From: Solirubrobacteraceae bacterium
Lineage (GTDB): Bacteria > Actinomycetota > Thermoleophilia > Solirubrobacterales > Solirubrobacteraceae
Reading direction: 5' to 3'
NCBI GenBank assembly: GCA_030690545.1
Contig: JAUYGN010000077.1
Span: 1 to 38,327 of the forward strand
DNA: 38,327 nucleotides
A program made the position numbers and the translations under genes. Below the pieces are notes generated by a model. The model was not told where the DNA came from and did not search any database. It saw only the letters and a list, made by a program, of their open reading frames with translations. The number at the start of each line of letters is the position of its first letter. The first letter of the stretch is position 1. Positions 31,724 through 38,327 of this stretch are shown here, one piece after another.

Positions 31724-33340
31724 ATGCGCCTCGACAGCCTGTCGACGAAGGCCTTCACGGCCCGCCAGCTCGTCGAGTGCGGGATGCTGGCCCCGACCCG
31801 TCCCGACCGGCTCGCGCGGACGGTCCTGGCGCTGAAGGACTGGGGCCCGACGTTCGCCGGCGGGTACGCCGTCGCCGCGATCCGCTACCCGGACGTCACG
31901 GCGCTGATCGACGAGCTCGGCGAGCTGACGTTCGCGGCCGTGCACCGCCGCACGAACGCGCTCGCGCACGCCTGGAGCGAGGCCGGCATCGGCGCCGGCG
32001 ACACCGTCGCGATCCTCGCTCGCAACCACCGCGGGTTCGTCGAGGCGGTAGTCGCGTGCTCGAAGCTCGGCGCCGACGCGCTGCTGATGAACACGGCCTT
32101 CTCCGGTCCCCAGGTCAGCGAGGTCTGCGAGCGCGAGCGGGCCTGCGCGATCGTCCACGACGACGAGTTCGCGGACGTCGCCGCGGACGCCGCGACGGGC
32201 CGCCGGCAGTTCGTCGCCTGGACGGCGCCGGACGCGCGCGCCGTGCCCGGCGTGCCGACGCTCGAGGCGCTGATCGACGCCGGCGATCCGGCCGAGGTCG
32301 TCGCGCCCGCCGCCAAGGGAGCGATCGTGATCCTCACGAGCGGCACGACGGGGACGCCGAAGGGCGCCTATCGCAAGGAGCCCCGGACGCTCGACCCGGC
32401 CGCCGCGCTGCTGTCGAAGATCCCGCTGCGCGCGCGCGAGCGCACGCTGATCGCCGCGCCGCTGTTTCACTCCTGGGGGCTCGCGCACCTCGCGCTCGGC
32501 CTCGGGCTGTCCGCGACGATCGTCCTGCTGCGGCGCTTCGATCCCGAGCGGACGCTGCACGCGATCGACGAGCACGGCGCGAACGCGCTGATCGTCGCTC
32601 CCGTCATGCTGCAGCGCATCCTCCAGCAGGGACCGCGGGTCGTGCGCAAGCACGACACCGGCTCGCTGCGCGTGATCGCCGCCAGCGGCTCGGCCCTGCC
32701 GGGCGAGCTTGCGACGCAGGTCCAGGACGCCTTCGGCGACGTGCTCTACAACCTCTACGGCTCGACCGAGGTGGCGTGGGCGACGATCGCCACGCCGGCC
32801 GACCTGCGCGCCTCGCCGGGCACCGCCGGGCGCCCGCCGCGGGGAACCGTCGTACGCCTCTACGACGCCACCGGCAAGGAGGTCGGCCCGGGCGAGACGG
32901 GCCGCATCTTCGTCGGCAACGAGCTCGCGTTCGACGGCTACACCGACGGCGGCGGCAAGGCCGTCATCGACGGCCTCGTGTCCTCCGGCGACGTCGGGCA
33001 CTTCGACGACGACGGGCGCCTGCACGTCGACGGTCGCGAGGACGAGATGATCGTCTCCGGCGGCGAGAACGTCTTCCCGCGCGAGGTCGAGGATGCGATC
33101 GCCCTGCTCGACGGCGTCGCGGAGGTCGCCGCGATCGGCGTCGCCGACGCCGACTTCGGCCAGCGGCTGCGGGCCTTCGTCGTGCGGCGCGACGGCGCGA
33201 GCGTCTCCGAGCGCGAGGTCAAGCAGCACGTCAAGGCGACGCTCGCGCGCTTCAAGGTCCCGCGCGACGTCGTCTTCGTCGACGAGCTGCCGCGCACCGC
33301 GACCGGCAAGGTGCTCAAGCGCGAGCTCGCCGAGCGATAG
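31724..33340 (+). CDS. Fatty-acyl-CoA synthetase / AMP-dependent ligase (FadD-like)
   Basis: A 538-residue ANL-family enzyme that activates a carboxylic acid as acyl-AMP and transfers it to CoA. Motifs in order: P-loop VILTSGTTGTPKGAYR (about 202-217), PLFHSWGLAHL, NLYGSTEVAW (A5), SSGDVGHFDDDGRLHVDGR (A7-A8), DEMIVSGGENVFPREVE and the catalytic lysine in TATGKVLKREL at the end. The sequence resembles mycobacterial FadD2/FadD12-type ligases, probably using medium- or long-chain fatty acids, but chain length cannot be read from it. It stands between unrelated genes, so it is not clearly in a pathway cluster. Confidence 0.93.
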   Translation: MRLDSLSTKAFTARQLVECGMLAPTRPDRLARTVLALKDWGPTFAGGYAVAAIRYPDVTALIDELGELTFAAVHRRTNALAHAWSEAGIGAGDTVAILARNHRGFVEAVVACSKLGADALLMNTAFSGPQVSEVCERERACAIVHDDEFADVAADAATGRRQFVAWTAPDARAVPGVPTLEALIDAGDPAEVVAPAAKGAIVILTSGTTGTPKGAYRKEPRTLDPAAALLSKIPLRARERTLIAAPLFHSWGLAHLALGLGLSATIVLLRRFDPERTLHAIDEHGANALIVAPVMLQRILQQGPRVVRKHDTGSLRVIAASGSALPGELATQVQDAFGDVLYNLYGSTEVAWATIATPADLRASPGTAGRPPRGTVVRLYDATGKEVGPGETGRIFVGNELAFDGYTDGGGKAVIDGLVSSGDVGHFDDDGRLHVDGREDEMIVSGGENVFPREVEDAIALLDGVAEVAAIGVADADFGQRLRAFVVRRDGASVSEREVKQHVKATLARFKVPRDVVFVDELPRTATGKVLKRELAER

Positions 33341-33369
33341 CCTGGGCAGTCGCGATCGGAGGCCGTCGA

Positions 33370-33385
33370 TAGCCTGTTCTCAGAC
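33370..33385 (+). promoter_or_regulatory. -10 hexamer for yceD
   Basis: TAGCCT at 33370-33375 ends 10 bp before ATG 33386. It restarts transcription of the conserved yceD-rpmF-plsX-acpP-rnc-smc string after the accessory block. Confidence 0.45.
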
Positions 33386-33904
33386 ATGCCGGCCCGCACC
33401 GACAGCTTCGATCTCGGTCGCCTGAGGCTGACCTCCGGCGAGGGTCGCCAGCTGCTGCTCGAGGTCGCGCTCGACCCGTTGCGGTTCGGCGGCGAGACGT
33501 ACGTCGTCACCCCGGACGCCGTCGTGGCGACGCTTGACATCTCGCGTACGACGCACAGCGGCCACGCCCTGCGATTGCGCTTCGGCGCGTCGCTGCGCGG
33601 GCCCTGCATGCGCTGCCTGGAGCCCGCTGAGCCGTCGATCACGGTCGATGCGCGCGAGGTCGACCAGCCGGGCGAAGTCGAGGAGCTGCAGAGCCCCTAC
33701 GTCGAGGACGACGTGCTCGACCTGCGCGGCTGGGCGCGCGACGCGCTCGCGCTCGCACTGCCCGTCCAACTGCTGTGCCGCGCCGACTGCGCGGGCCTGT
33801 GCGCCGTCTGTGGCGCGGACCTCAACGCGGCCGGGCCGGAGCACCACCACGAGCCGATGCCCGATCGGCGCTGGGCCAAGCTTGGCGAGATCAGATTCGA
33901 GTAG
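33386..33904 (+). CDS. yceD: YceD/DUF177 family protein
   Basis: A 172-residue protein with the DUF177 signature: Cys74 and Cys77 (GPCMRCLEP) and the C-terminal cluster CRADCAGLCAVCG (Cys131, 135, 139, 142), a probable zinc site. YceD is linked in bacteria and plants to 23S rRNA accumulation and is almost always directly upstream of rpmF. Here a gene on the opposite strand lies between them and overlaps the yceD end by 14 bp, breaking the usual coupling. Confidence 0.93.
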   Translation: MPARTDSFDLGRLRLTSGEGRQLLLEVALDPLRFGGETYVVTPDAVVATLDISRTTHSGHALRLRFGASLRGPCMRCLEPAEPSITVDAREVDQPGEVEELQSPYVEDDVLDLRGWARDALALALPVQLLCRADCAGLCAVCGADLNAAGPEHHHEPMPDRRWAKLGEIRFE

Positions 33905-34439
33905 GCCGGCTGGCGCGGATGTCGCCCGTCGCCCACAGGTGCTCGTCGGGCTCGGGAGGCAGCGCCGCCGGCGGCTGGGCGAACGGCGCGGCCGGCGCGC
34001 TGCCGCGCGCGATCCGCTCGAGATCGTCGTGTGCTGCGACGAGCGGGCGCACGCCCGGCGCGAGGTCGGTGTGCTTGGCCTCGTCGAACAGGTCGCGGTA
34101 GCCGCCCGTCCCCTTGGGCTCGAAGTCGATGTCGATGTCGGCGTGGCGGGTCATGAACGAGCACGGCGCGAGCTCGCGCAGGTCACAGCGGCGGTAGTCG
34201 TACTCCGTCACCGCGGGGGTCCCGGCGATCCCCTGCTCGGCATCCATCGCCTGCAGCGCGCCGTTGAGGCGTTCGACGTTGCGTCCGTAGCCGCCGGGCA
34301 CGATCGCCACGCCGGAGACGAAGCCGCCCTCGTTGTAGATCGCTTCGGCGACATCGCCGACGAGCACGAACTCGACGTCGTGCTGCGCCAGAACGCGCAG
34401 CGTCTCCAGCAGCGTGGGGTCCAGTTCGAGCTCGCTCAT
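33891..34439 (-). CDS. Degenerate nucleotidyltransferase-like (MNT/AbiEii-type) protein
   Basis: A 182-residue protein. LRVLAQHDVEFVLVGDVAEA (15-34) and GRNVERLNGALQAMD (52-66) match the start of minimal nucleotidyltransferases found in toxin-antitoxin systems. The G[GS] motif is VGD and the metal-binding DhD is replaced by SGVAIVP (42-48), while a later acidic strand, DIDIDF (101-106), remains. Catalysis is therefore doubtful. A Pro/Ala-rich C-terminal tail follows. Start options are ATG 34439, or GTG 34466/34469, which sit behind an AAGGAG. It is inserted between yceD and rpmF on the opposite strand. Confidence 0.65.
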   Translation of the reverse strand: MSELELDPTLLETLRVLAQHDVEFVLVGDVAEAIYNEGGFVSGVAIVPGGYGRNVERLNGALQAMDAEQGIAGTPAVTEYDYRRCDLRELAPCSFMTRHADIDIDFEPKGTGGYRDLFDEAKHTDLAPGVRPLVAAHDDLERIARGSAPAAPFAQPPAALPPEPDEHLWATGDIRASRPTRI

Positions 34440-34519
34440 GCGACTACCGTTCGCGCGCGAGGGCACCACTCCTTCCCGCGATTCGCATCAGTCGACACGA
34501 GCCGCCCTGCCCGCTGCGC

Positions 34520-34536
34520 TACCCTTCCGCGAGCCG
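34520..34536 (+). promoter_or_regulatory. -10 hexamer for rpmF
   Basis: TACCCT at 34520-34525 ends 11 bp before ATG 34537. Its presence fits the break in yceD-rpmF coupling caused by the inserted opposite-strand gene. Confidence 0.45.
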
Positions 34537-34734
34537 ATGGCCGTTCCCAAGCAAAAGCAGTCGCACGCTCGCACGGCCCAGCGCCGCGCCCAGCACAAGA
34601 TGGCGGCGCCCGTCTACAACGCCTGCCCGCAGTGCCACAGCCCGCGCCGCCCCCACCGGGTCTGCCCGGTCTGCGGTCATTACGCCGGCCGCGAGGTCGT
34701 CGCGTCGCTCACGGCGCACGACCACGACCACTGA
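34537..34734 (+). CDS. rpmF: 50S ribosomal protein L32
   Basis: A 65-residue large-subunit protein with the standard MAVPKQKQSHARTAQRRAQH start and a zinc knuckle of Cys30, Cys33 (CPQC), Cys43 and Cys46 (CPVCG). The C-terminus is His/Asp-rich (AHDHDH). It is followed 13 bp later by plsX, the common rpmF-plsX linkage. Confidence 0.96.
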   Translation: MAVPKQKQSHARTAQRRAQHKMAAPVYNACPQCHSPRRPHRVCPVCGHYAGREVVASLTAHDHDH

Positions 34735-34747
34735 GGATGGCCGGCGG

Positions 34748-35866
34748 ATGCCGGCCCGACGCATCACGGCACTGACCGACCGCTTCGACCGCGCTGCCCG
34801 CTCGGACGGCAGCGCCCCGGCGGCCTCACAGCAGGTCCCGGTGATCGCCGTCGATGCCAACGGCGCGGACCTCGGTCCCGCCGAGGTGGCGGCCGGCGCG
34901 AACATCGCCGCCGCCGAGGGCGTGCGCATCCTGCTGTTCGGACCCGCGGCCGAGCTCGGTGCCGCCGGCCCCGGGATCGAGGTCGTCGATGCGCCGCTGT
35001 CGATCGCCAAGGAGGGCAACCCGGCCGCCGCCGCGCGCGCCAACCCGGACTCCTCGATCGTCCGCGCCGCCCGCGCCGTCGCCGAGGGCGACGCCGACGC
35101 GCTCGTCTCGGGCGGCTCGACGGGTGCCGCGCTGGCCGCGGCGCTGTTCAACATCAAGCGCGACCGCGGCATCCTGCGCCCGGCGCTGGCGGCGCTGATA
35201 CCGGTCCCCGGCGCGCCCGTGACGCTCGTCGACGTCGGTGCCAACATCGAGGTGCGGCCCGAGCACCTCGTCCAGTTCGCGTTCATGGGCTCGGCGCTCG
35301 CACAGGTCGTTCACGGCGTCGACGATCCACGCGTCGCGCTGCTGTCGATCGGCGAGGAGGAGACGCGCGGATCGCCGCTGACGATCGACGTCCACGCCCG
35401 CCTGACCGCGGCGCCCGGCCTGAACTTCGTCGGCAACATCGAGGGCCACGCGCTCGTCGAGGGCCACGCCGACGTCATCGTCACCGACGGCTTCACCGGC
35501 AACGTCGCGCTGAAGGTGATGGAGGGCGTGTCGGACAAGATGATCGCGCTGCTCGAGCAGACCGCCGTCTCCTCGACCCGCGCGAAGGCCGGCGGGCTGC
35601 TGATGCGCCCGGCGCTGGAGGCGTTCCGCGACGAGATCCACCCCGAGCTCGCCGGCGGCGCCTACCTGCTGGGCCTGCGCAAGATCGGCGTCGTCGCGCA
35701 CGGTCGCTTCACGAGTCGCGGCTTCGCGCACGCGATCCTGCTCGCCGCGCGGGGCGTCAGCGGCGACGTCACGGGCCAGACGCACGACGCACTCGAGCGG
35801 GCCGGTGCGCTGCGCAAGCCGGGCGGCGCGCTGTCCGGAAGCGGCTCTACGGTGTCCGCGCAATGA
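34748..35866 (+). CDS. plsX: Phosphate acyltransferase PlsX
   Basis: Makes acyl-phosphate from acyl-ACP, feeding phospholipid synthesis. The 372-residue protein has the PlsX core: VSGGSTGAALAAALFNIKR, TLVDVGANIEVRPEHLVQFA, LLSIGEEETRGS, FVGNIEGHALVEGHADVIV and TDGFTGNVALKVMEG. Two oddities: an N-terminal extension of about 30 residues before VIAVDANGADLGP, and the usual DAMGGD motif there reads DANGAD. An internal GTG at VIAVDA would remove the extension. It stands directly before acpP, its partner protein. Confidence 0.94.
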   Translation: MPARRITALTDRFDRAARSDGSAPAASQQVPVIAVDANGADLGPAEVAAGANIAAAEGVRILLFGPAAELGAAGPGIEVVDAPLSIAKEGNPAAAARANPDSSIVRAARAVAEGDADALVSGGSTGAALAAALFNIKRDRGILRPALAALIPVPGAPVTLVDVGANIEVRPEHLVQFAFMGSALAQVVHGVDDPRVALLSIGEEETRGSPLTIDVHARLTAAPGLNFVGNIEGHALVEGHADVIVTDGFTGNVALKVMEGVSDKMIALLEQTAVSSTRAKAGGLLMRPALEAFRDEIHPELAGGAYLLGLRKIGVVAHGRFTSRGFAHAILLAARGVSGDVTGQTHDALERAGALRKPGGALSGSGSTVSAQ

Positions 35867-35882
35867 TGCGAGCAGCAGCGCG

Positions 35883-36155
35883 ATGACCCGAGAAGAGATC
35901 TTCGCCATGATCCAGGCGCACCTCGTCGACGAGCTCGAGGTCGATCCCGCGCGGATCGACGACAGCACGAACTTCAGGGTCGATCTGGAAGCCGACTCGC
36001 TCGATCTCTACACGCTCGTGCAGGAGCTCGAGGACTCCTTCGGCGTGACGATGACCGACGAGCAGGCGGCGAAGATCGCTACGGTCGGCCAAGCCGTCGA
36101 CTTCGTCCTGGGGTCGATGGCGCAGACCGTCGCCCACGAGCCATCCGAGCCCTGA
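35883..36155 (+). CDS. acpP: Acyl carrier protein
   Basis: A 90-residue carrier for fatty acid synthesis. The phosphopantetheine attachment site is Ser39 in LEADSLDLYTLVQELED. The flanking acidic helices are typical (TREEIFAMIQAHLVDELEVD; ITDEQ-like TMTDEQAAKIATVGQAVDF). It is slightly longer at the C-terminus than the usual 77-80 residues. Its stop, TGA 36153-36155, overlaps the presumed CTG start of rnc. Confidence 0.95.
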   Translation: MTREEIFAMIQAHLVDELEVDPARIDDSTNFRVDLEADSLDLYTLVQELEDSFGVTMTDEQAAKIATVGQAVDFVLGSMAQTVAHEPSEP

Positions 36156-36856
36156 GCCTTCTCACCGAACTCCTCGAGGAGCTGCCCGAGCACCTGTATC
36201 GGCAGGTCTTCACGCACGCCTCGTGGACCGAGCGGCGCAGCGACTCGTACTCGCGCCTGGCATTCCTCGGCGATTCGGTCCTCGGCCTCGCCGTGACCGC
36301 GCATCTGTACCCGCGCCTGGAGGCCGAGCGCTTCGGCGCCGGCCGCCTGACGAAGATCCGCGCCCAGAGCGTCTCCGGCGTGTCCTGTCGCGCCGTCGCC
36401 GAGCGCCTCGGCGTGCCCGACAGGCTGCGTGCGACGGCGCCCCCGGGCATCGGCCAGAGCGCCGAGACGCTCGTCGAGACCGAGCGCGTGCTGGCATCGG
36501 TGATCGAGGCCGTGATCGGCGCCTGCTACCTGCACTGCGGCTACGAGCGCACCGCGGCCGCGGTCGTCGACGCCTTCCAGCCGGAGATCGCCAACGCCCT
36601 GTCGAACCCCGTCGACTTCAAGTCCACGCTGCAGGAGCGCCTCGCGCGCCGTGCGGAGCTCGTCGAGTACACGATCGTCGCCGAGCAGGGCCCGCCGCAC
36701 GACCGCACCTTCGAGGTCGTCGCGGCGGTCGACGGCGTCGCGGTCGGGCGCGGCGCGGGACGCTCCAAGAAGCATGCCGAGCAGGAAGCGGCGCGGATCG
36801 CGCTGGAGTCGCTGCATCCCGCCGAGCCCGTCGTGGGCGCCGGGGACGTGCGCTGA
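36152..36856 (+). CDS. rnc: Ribonuclease III homologue with altered catalytic site and non-standard start
   Basis: RNase III cuts double-stranded RNA in rRNA and mRNA processing. The endonuclease domain (about 1-145) has VFTHASWTERRSDSYSRLAF, LGDSVLGLAV and ERVLASVIEAVIGACYL; a well-conserved dsRNA-binding domain follows (about 154-222: DFKSTLQERL to GRSKKHAEQEAARIALESL). The domain clearly extends upstream of the first GTG (36293), yet no ATG, GTG or TTG exists in frame between acpP and there; CTG 36152, overlapping the acpP stop, is the likeliest start, giving 234 residues. Against E. coli positions, Glu38 is Ser34, Glu41 is Ala37 and Asp114 is Ser116; only Asp45 (Asp41) and Glu117 (Glu119) remain. 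Synteny with acpP and smc is canonical. Confidence 0.9.
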   Translation: MSLLTELLEELPEHLYRQVFTHASWTERRSDSYSRLAFLGDSVLGLAVTAHLYPRLEAERFGAGRLTKIRAQSVSGVSCRAVAERLGVPDRLRATAPPGIGQSAETLVETERVLASVIEAVIGACYLHCGYERTAAAVVDAFQPEIANALSNPVDFKSTLQERLARRAELVEYTIVAEQGPPHDRTFEVVAAVDGVAVGRGAGRSKKHAEQEAARIALESLHPAEPVVGAGDVR

Positions 36857-36857
36857 C

Positions 36858-38327
36858 GTGCACCTGAGGTCGGTGACCCTGAAGGGGTTCAAGTCGTTTC
36901 CTGATCGCACGAGGCTCGACTTCAGCCCCGGCGTGTCGGTCGTCGTCGGGCCCAACGGCTCGGGCAAGTCGAACATCACCGACGCCGTGCTGTGGGCGAT
37001 GGGCGAGCAGTCGCCGCTCGCCGTCCGCGGGCAGTCGATGCGCGACGTGATCTTCGGCGGCGGCCGCGGCGTGAAGGCGAGGGAGGCAGCCGAGGTCGAG
37101 ATCGTGATCGACAACGGCGACGGCGCGGTCGACCTTCCGCTCGGCGAGATCTCGATCCTGCGCCGGCTCGATCGCTCGGGCGACGGCGAGTACCGGCTCA
37201 ACGGCGCGAAGTGCCGGCTCGTCGACGTGCTCGAGGTGCTCTCCGACACGGGCCTGGGCAAGGAGATGCACTCGGTCGTCTCGCAGGGTCGCGTCGAGTC
37301 GATCGTGACGTCCAAGCCGCGCGATCGGCGCCTGCTGATCGAGGAGGCCGCGGGCCTGGGCAAGCATCGCAAGCGGCGGCGCCGCGCGCAGCTCAAGCTC
37401 GAGCGCACGCAGGACAACCTCGATCGCGCGCTCGACGTCGAGCGCGAGGCGCGCTCGCGGCTGCGACCGCTCAAGCGCCAGGCCGAGGCCGCCGAGCTGC
37501 ATGAGCGCCTCGAGCGCCAGACGCTGCAGGCGCGCTGGGAGCTCGTTCGCGACATCGCGCGCGCCCGTCGCGGGGAGCTGCAGGCCGCCGAGGAGGTCGC
37601 GACGGCCGCGCGCGACGCGCGCGACGAGGCGCAGACGGCCCTGCGCGCGGTCGCCGCGCGCCGCCGGGAGGCCGAGCAGGCGATGGCCCGTCGCAGCGAG
37701 CAGCGCGAGGCGTTTGCCGAGGTGGTCTACCGCGCGCGCTCGGCCGGCGAGCGCGTCGAGCTGCGCCTCGAGCGCACCCGCTCGACCACCGAGGACCTGC
37801 GCGATCGCGTCGAACGGCGCACGCACGAGCTGACGGCGCTGAGTGCGCTGGCGGCGTCCGAGGGCGAGGCCGTCTCCGATGACGGCGGCGAGCGGATCGC
37901 CGCGCTCGAGGGCGAGCTCGAGCAGCTCGCCGCCGATCACGCGACGCAGCTGCAGCGCGAGCTCGTCACGCTCGAGCAGGCGCGCGCCGAAGCCGACTCG
38001 GCGACACGGGACGGGCAGGGCGCCGTCGAGGCCAAGCGCGCGCTGCTGGCGTCGGCGACCGCTGCCGCGGAGGCTGCACGCGAACGTCGTCGCGAGGCCG
38101 ACCGTGCGCTCGAGGCGGCGCGCCGCGAGGCCGCCCGCGTCGGCGCCGAGCTGGCGGCCTGCAACCAGTTCCTGCGCACCCGCTCGGCCGCGGCCGGTCG
38201 CGGCGGCGCGGCGGGGGCTCGCTCGCTGGCCGATGCGCTCGAGGTCGAGCCCGGCTACGAGCGCGCCGTCGCGGGCGCGCTCGGCGGGCTGCTGCGCGCG
38301 TCGCTCGCCGAGCTCGTGCGCGACGGC
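36858..38327 (+). CDS. smc: Chromosome segregation protein SMC, 3'-truncated by window edge
   Basis: Subunit of the condensin complex. GTG 36858 begins VHLRSVTLKGFKSFPDRTRL, followed by Walker A GPNGSGKSN (31-39), the MRDVIFGG motif and SQGRVESIVTSKPRDRRLLI (142-161), then an Arg/Glu/Ala-rich coiled coil from about 170 to 450. The hinge begins near residue 455 (ARSLADALEVEPGYERAVAG). The frame is open to the right edge (490 codons seen). The hinge in well-studied bacterial SMC proteins starts near residue 500-520, so the first coiled-coil arm looks about 50 residues short. The gene begins 1 bp after the rnc stop. Confidence 0.97.
   Translation, partial: MHLRSVTLKGFKSFPDRTRLDFSPGVSVVVGPNGSGKSNITDAVLWAMGEQSPLAVRGQSMRDVIFGGGRGVKAREAAEVEIVIDNGDGAVDLPLGEISILRRLDRSGDGEYRLNGAKCRLVDVLEVLSDTGLGKEMHSVVSQGRVESIVTSKPRDRRLLIEEAAGLGKHRKRRRRAQLKLERTQDNLDRALDVEREARSRLRPLKRQAEAAELHERLERQTLQARWELVRDIARARRGELQAAEEVATAARDARDEAQTALRAVAARRREAEQAMARRSEQREAFAEVVYRARSAGERVELRLERTRSTTEDLRDRVERRTHELTALSALAASEGEAVSDDGGERIAALEGELEQLAADHATQLQRELVTLEQARAEADSATRDGQGAVEAKRALLASATAAAEAARERRREADRALEAARREAARVGAELAACNQFLRTRSAAAGRGGAAGARSLADALEVEPGYERAVAGALGGLLRASLAELVRDG

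Follow-up and report, generated by a model that had tools for sequence, protein, structure and literature searches.

The RNase III of Solirubrobacterales lacks two metal-site acids, carries a basic residue at the Dicer lysine position and is probably still a nuclease

Textbooks define RNase III, whether of bacteria or in Dicer, by two-metal catalysis with four conserved acids. The rnc gene on contig JAUYGN010000077.1 of a Solirubrobacteraceae bacterium (38,327 nt, the whole of which is called the window here) raises the question of what becomes of such an enzyme when part of this set is missing. A first-pass annotation of the window had left two answers side by side, either cleavage of double-stranded RNA (dsRNA) with a reduced metal site, or a dsRNA-binding factor without nuclease activity. 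Our analysis favours the former over the latter, on account of two invariant acids (D45 and E117), the retention of rRNA processing stems and the absence of a second RNase III or Mini-III from the genomes searched. We put at roughly 0.6 the probability that this protein is the sole, functional RNase III of the Solirubrobacterales, an order of soil bacteria, with an active site that was rebuilt in a single event at the order's base.

Residues are numbered here as in Escherichia coli RNase III, unless a residue of the window protein is given. HMMER alignments to the RNase IIIs of E. coli, M. tuberculosis and C. jejuni are gap-free across both active-site motifs, which in the window protein read SRLAFLGD and LASVIEA, and they confirm the annotated replacement of E38, E41 and D114 by Ser34, Ala37 and Ser116, as well as the retention of Asp45 and Glu117. 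Because no gap interrupts either motif, no acid has merely been displaced, and a shift of the acids to neighbouring positions, which would have undone that annotation, did not occur. The description of all three lost residues as canonical catalytic acids holds for E41 and D114 only. In the post-cleavage structure of the E. coli enzyme the metal site consists of E41, D45, D114 and E117, whilst E38, which is no metal ligand, and E65 lie on an RNA-contacting valley (PMC9291653). As E38 and E65 sit on this valley, the loss comprises two metal-site acids (E41 and D114) and two valley acids. The loss of E38 is minor, since most genomes of the order keep it. The list of changes, correct as given, had also missed the loss of E65 and an order-specific basic residue at position 110. 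In the structure of EcEEQ, an engineered E. coli enzyme, metal A is held by E41 and E117 and metal B by D45 and E117 (PMC9291653); in the post-cleavage structure of the E. coli enzyme D114 does not itself coordinate Mg2+ (PMC9291653), and models of Dicer place its equivalent at metal A as well (PMC13334501). Judged from the alignment, the metal-site acids that were lost are those private to metal A, and the metal-B pair D45/E117 is kept exactly.

Residue counts were taken from 109 genomes of the order (108 distinct rnc sequences), including Solirubrobacteraceae, Thermoleophilaceae, Conexibacter and Patulibacter. One further sequence (L174), first counted with the order, has Glu41 and is similar to the sister family, to which it was reassigned; with this assignment, position 41 is Ala in 109/109 genomes, D45 and E117 are kept in 109/109, E65 is lost in 107/109 and E38 is kept in 62/109, and the D114 site holds Ser in 90, Glu in 18 and Asp in one. 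Outside the order, E41 is kept by 51/51 sequences from other orders of the class, 40/40 from the rest of the phylum and 67/67 from other bacteria. The presence of Ala at this position is beyond chance (109/109 in the order versus 0/158 sampled outside it). The D114 site is Asp in 11/51 sister-order sequences (Ala in 32, Asn in five), 36/40 from the rest of the phylum and 63/67 from other bacteria. An alignment of rnc homologues across Thermoleophilia and other actinobacteria, the check proposed with the annotation, thus found the substitutions at E41 and D114 fixed in the order. In the rnc tree the class and the order each form one clade (support for the order, 0.86); the tree requires a single change at E41 and seven or more at D114. 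From these change counts, E41 was lost once, at the base of the order, and D114 was lost repeatedly within the class.

D114 is usually described as a catalytic residue, yet most RNase IIIs of the sister orders of Thermoleophilia (L053–L102 and L175), canonical in other respects, carry Ala or Asn there. No new acid that might compensate elsewhere is fixed at ≥95% in the 109 genomes. One candidate, E109, is acidic in 95/109, and was dropped given its 16 changes on the tree and the Glu that E. coli also has there. Our literature search, which covered few subscription papers, found no bacterial RNase III of this kind described, and a search on RNase III in Thermoleophilia returned nothing useful.

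The order does share one further feature: at position 110, four residues ahead of the D114 site, it mostly has a basic residue. Position 110 is Arg in 101, Lys in three, His in two and Ser in three of the 109 genomes, and is basic in 0/159 sequences outside the order. This is where eukaryotic-type enzymes have a lysine, which in the window protein is Arg112 (R/K in 104/109 across the order); inspection of the alignment by eye did not reveal the Asn that is conserved among eukaryotic RNase IIIs. Equivalents of position 110 include the catalytic K112 of EhRNaseIII (with D116/E119), K217 of KpDcr1, which contacts the nucleophilic water, and K313 of ScRnt1, which contacts the product phosphate (PMC5357909), and also K1806 of human Dicer (with D1810/E1813; PMC13334501), whose mouse counterpart K1790 is required for cleavage (PMC13334501, PMC8138440). 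Arg or Lys occupies position 110 in all 90 genomes with Ser114, and the five exceptions all have an acid at 114 (Fisher p ~1e-4 for the association of R/K at 110 with Ser114, not corrected for kinship). Among all aligned sequences, none has Ala41 while lacking both a basic 110 and an acidic 114, and none combines Glu41 with a basic 110. The basic residue was gained once on the rnc tree, on the same branch as E41A, which suggests that the two changes are coupled.

Such coupling bears on another explanation, an ordinary two-metal RNase III that tolerates its losses, recruiting metal A through E119, phosphate and water, with the Arg at 110 as a neutral lineage marker or an RNA contact. The E. coli E41A and D114A mutants retain weak activity in excess Mg2+ (PMC8708148 Table 1), and D114, which makes no direct contact to Mg2+ in E. 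coli (PMC9291653), has disappeared on many separate occasions in the class. However, E41 is never lost elsewhere in our samples, and its loss coincides with the gain of the basic residue; we therefore consider this explanation improbable.

The nuclease domain has diverged considerably within the order (mean pairwise identity, 59%), and only 9/132 of its columns are strictly invariant, D45 and E117 being the sole acids among them. Ala mutants of E117 and D45 lose cleavage and keep RNA binding (PMC3386247; also PMC8708148), and for this reason the invariance of the two residues speaks for catalysis. The ratio of non-synonymous to synonymous substitution rates (dN/dS), taken from nearest pairs only, is ~0.08–0.13 for the nuclease domain and ~0.26–0.30 for the dsRNA-binding domain (dsRBD); the all-pairs values (median ~0.46) are unreliable because of divergence and high G+C. 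The nuclease domain is thus under purifying selection. The window belongs to a fragmented assembly of 149 contigs, which might suggest a pseudogene, an assembly error or contamination. Such an artefact is refuted, its remaining probability being negligible, by the low dN/dS, by the monophyly of the order in the rnc tree and by the recurrence of these residues throughout the 109 genomes (108 distinct sequences), among them that of the isolate Conexibacter sp. S30A1, which is complete.

No other enzyme of the family appears to have taken over. A search for a second RNase III or Mini-III with the profiles PF14622/PF00636 found a single RNase III domain in the genome of the window, which is 98.6% complete. 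Of 61 genomes of the order that were searched, none had more than one such domain, and hence no Mini-III or second Rnc was found. A canonical RNase III (L003, G059:C92; 235 bits) lies on a 3.8 kb contig of an assembly that also has a low-scoring variant; the canonical copy is probably contamination, the assembly being 84% complete and 7% contaminated. Other ribonucleases are available, as RNase E/G and RNase J are both present in 21/21 relatives. The window genome (G000) has three RNase J-like matches, two of full length and one partial (G000:C92:12662-14305, G000:C131:65968-67602 and G000:C105:19734-20543).

Long stems flanking the 16S and 23S rRNAs are the classic substrates of RNase III. 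We looked for them in 13 genomes of the order and two of a sister family, placing the 23S ends by conserved motifs; the same method recovered the expected stems of E. coli rrnB. A flanking stem of ~25–46 bp forms around 23S in 15/15 genomes and around 16S in 14/15, the 16S stem of the window genome pairing CGGTCTTTGAAAACTCAACAGCATGC with GCATGCTGTTGAGTTTTGAGAGACCG. Changes on both sides of a pair were found at 4/22 core pairs of the 16S stem and 8/22 of the 23S stem. Pairing in the 23S stem (90.6%) exceeds the maximum obtained by exchanging halves between genomes (87.9%). For 16S the two values are equal (95.1%), and this control does not discriminate because the sequences are nearly identical, so that only the four double changes are informative there. 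As the 16S and 23S stems are kept with compensatory changes, RNase III-type substrates are maintained.

Two side observations concern the same loci. In 13/14 and 13/15 genomes (L103–L117) the 16S and 23S stems have in common a motif, CTTTGAAAACT or CCTTGAAAACT, that includes a G-G mismatch at an equivalent position, perhaps a positioning signal. The 23S rRNA gene is in places interrupted by insertions of ~0.7–1.5 kb (L108:4725-5467 in Conexibacter sp. S30A1, and two in L107), which hold open reading frames for LAGLIDADG endonucleases (PF00961, PF03161) and in which Rfam found no known intron family.

The stems and the copy number bear directly on the main rival to a working nuclease, a protein that binds dsRNA as an RNA chaperone or assembly factor and has lost nuclease activity. 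In this reading salt bridges from Arg112 to D41 and E119 replace the metals, so that the two acids are retained for the sake of stability, and RNase E/G and J mature the rRNA. Such a role would fit the loss of the metal-A ligands, the strong conservation of the dsRBD residues in the order and the presence of RNase E/G and J in 21/21 genomes. RNase III that has been made catalytically dead continues to bind RNA in vivo (PMC3386247), and our fold search also returned mitoribosomal large-subunit chains that share the RNase III fold (a literature search on the catalytic residues of MRPL44 gave nothing useful). However, D45 and E117 do not vary even where position 110 is neither Arg nor Lys (five genomes), and in three of these the residue is Ser, which makes the salt bridge impossible; no additional RNase III or Mini-III was found as a replacement in the 61 genomes searched; and the stems remain long and covary. 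We judge a purely binding role unlikely, if by no means far-fetched.

Our preferred reading is that the enzyme probably still cuts RNA, with a rebuilt, possibly one-metal, active site. It would cut the double-stranded stems around 16S and 23S rRNA, with metal B, held by D41 and E119, stabilizing the leaving 3′-oxygen and the scissile phosphate. Arg112, as placed by the alignment, may take over some of the roles in charge and positioning that metal A plays on the nucleophile side, in the manner of the lysine of Dicer, Dcr1 and Rnt1. Metal A may be missing, or E119 and phosphate may recruit it only weakly, and the enzyme could therefore have a high Mg2+ requirement or prefer Mn2+, an ion with which certain active-site mutants regain activity (PMC3839596). 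RNA binding would be tightened by the loss of the valley acids, as in EcEEQ. The most specific form of this proposal, a natural one-metal RNase III in which an arginine at the Dicer-lysine position replaces metal A together with its ligands E41 and D114, whilst metal B is kept and cleavage continues, is tentative, and we hold it at rather less than even odds.

Several considerations weigh against a working nuclease. The E41A and D114A mutants are each already weak in E. coli, and combining the two might abolish activity; salt bridges with Arg112 could be what preserves D41 and E119; and the rRNA stems could serve ribosome assembly uncut, or could be cut by RNase E/G or J, both of which are present.

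By descent and fold the window protein is clearly a bacterial RNase III that lacks the defining four-acid feature. Its domain order, an RNase III domain followed by one dsRBD, is that of bacterial class 1 Rnc, with PF14622, PF00636 and PF00035 all scoring above their cut-offs, and its acpP-rnc-smc context and rnc phylogeny agree with orthology. Of the metal-site acids E41, D45, D114 and E117, expected of class 1 Rnc and of eukaryotic-type enzymes, only D45 and E117 are present. The protein scores 156 bits against the curated NCBIfam equivalog TIGR02191, below the cut-off of 166.25, which is passed by only 9/232 genomes of the order. Mini-III (MrnC), an RNase III domain without a dsRBD, does not describe it, as a dsRBD is present. 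The AlphaFold2 model shows an intact fold (mean predicted local distance difference test score, 91.9); the best VIA fold match is 7R97, the E. coli EcEEQ post-cleavage complex (Z 19.7, root-mean-square deviation 3.4, 212 residues), tied with the second match, 2NUG (Z 19.4).

The annotation of the dsRBD and of the gene context as normal was borne out by the PF00035 match and by the PF00550 and PF02463 flanks (Table 1); plsX (PF02504) is also among the flanking genes. Rfam found no RNA element over 33000–38327. The window rnc appears to start at the CTG at 36152, no in-frame ATG, GTG or TTG occurring before 36293. Standard start codons are likewise missing between the upstream in-frame stop and the conserved His22 in 23/120 rnc sequences of the order, the window included, and in 22 of these 23 a CTG lies exactly 21 codons before His22, where standard starts peak in other genomes. 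Apparent CTG starts are seen at 36152–36154 of the window, in L006, L019, L030 and L260 and in others, the frame often opening just one codon earlier; a literature search on bacterial CUG starts gave nothing useful.

Table 1. Coordinates of genes, domains and active-site residues in the window, with the evidence for each
Feature	Position	Strand	Evidence
acpP, acyl carrier protein	35883..36155	+	PF00550; TGA overlaps rnc CTG
rnc, RNase III homologue, 234 aa	36152..36856	+	translated frame; apparent CTG start overlaps acpP stop (CTGA)
RNase III domain, residues 1-151	36152..36604	+	PF14622 4.7e-20, PF00636 4e-17
Ser34 at E. coli E38, RNA-contacting valley	36251..36253	+	alignment; Glu kept in 62/109 of order
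Ala37 at E. coli E41, metal-A ligand	36260..36262	+	alignment; Ala in 109/109; ligand role PMC9291653
Asp41 = E. coli D45, metal-B ligand	36272..36274	+	alignment; 109/109
Ala63 at E. coli E65, RNA-contacting valley	36338..36340	+	alignment; lost in 107/109
Arg112 at E. coli S110, catalytic Lys position of Dicer/Dcr1/Rnt1	36485..36487	+	R/K 104/109 vs 0/159 outside; PMC5357909, PMC13334501
Ser116 at E. coli D114	36497..36499	+	alignment; order: S 90, E 18, D 1
Glu119 = E. coli E117, shared metal A/B ligand	36506..36508	+	alignment; 109/109
dsRBD, residues 157-221, conserved GPPH and KKxAEQ motifs	36620..36814	+	PF00035 1.2e-15
Ala165 at E. coli Q165, third EcEEQ position	36644..36646	+	order: A 105, M 4; PMC9291653
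smc, 5′ part, continues beyond window end	36858..38327	+	PF02463

With the ligands private to metal A gone from its only RNase III and a basic residue at the eukaryotic lysine site, the clade would represent a natural experiment on the role of that lysine. One protein and a few point mutants could be used to test if a metal ion is replaceable by a basic residue, and the order may be a source of natural Dicer-like bacterial enzymes. If the protein were inactive, a whole order would mature its rRNA without RNase III cleavage even though the stems persist.

Compared with canonical bacterial RNase III (E. coli Rnc, A. aeolicus, M. tuberculosis), the window protein shares the domain order, the fold, D45, E117 and the dsRBD, as well as the presence of rRNA stem substrates and a gene context that is common in many bacteria, and differs in E41→A, D114→S/E, E65→A and the new Arg/Lys at 110. 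Its nearest relatives, the sister orders of Thermoleophilia (for example, the Gaiella-like family f7), resemble it in having mostly Ala or Asn at D114 and mostly Ala at Q165, but keep E38, E41 and E65, and their position 110 is not basic. The engineered ‘bacterial Dicer’ EcEEQ (E38A/E65A/Q165A; PDB 7R97, PMC9291653) was altered at three positions where the window protein reads S, A and A; unlike the window protein, it retains E41 and D114. Lastly, Dicer, Dcr1 and Rnt1 resemble the window protein in being basic at the position that precedes the D114 site by four residues (K1806, K217 and K313, and K112 in EhRNaseIII), but eukaryotic RNase III generally has the four acids plus Lys, whereas the order has mostly Arg with two acids gone, in a sequence that is bacterial by phylogeny and context.
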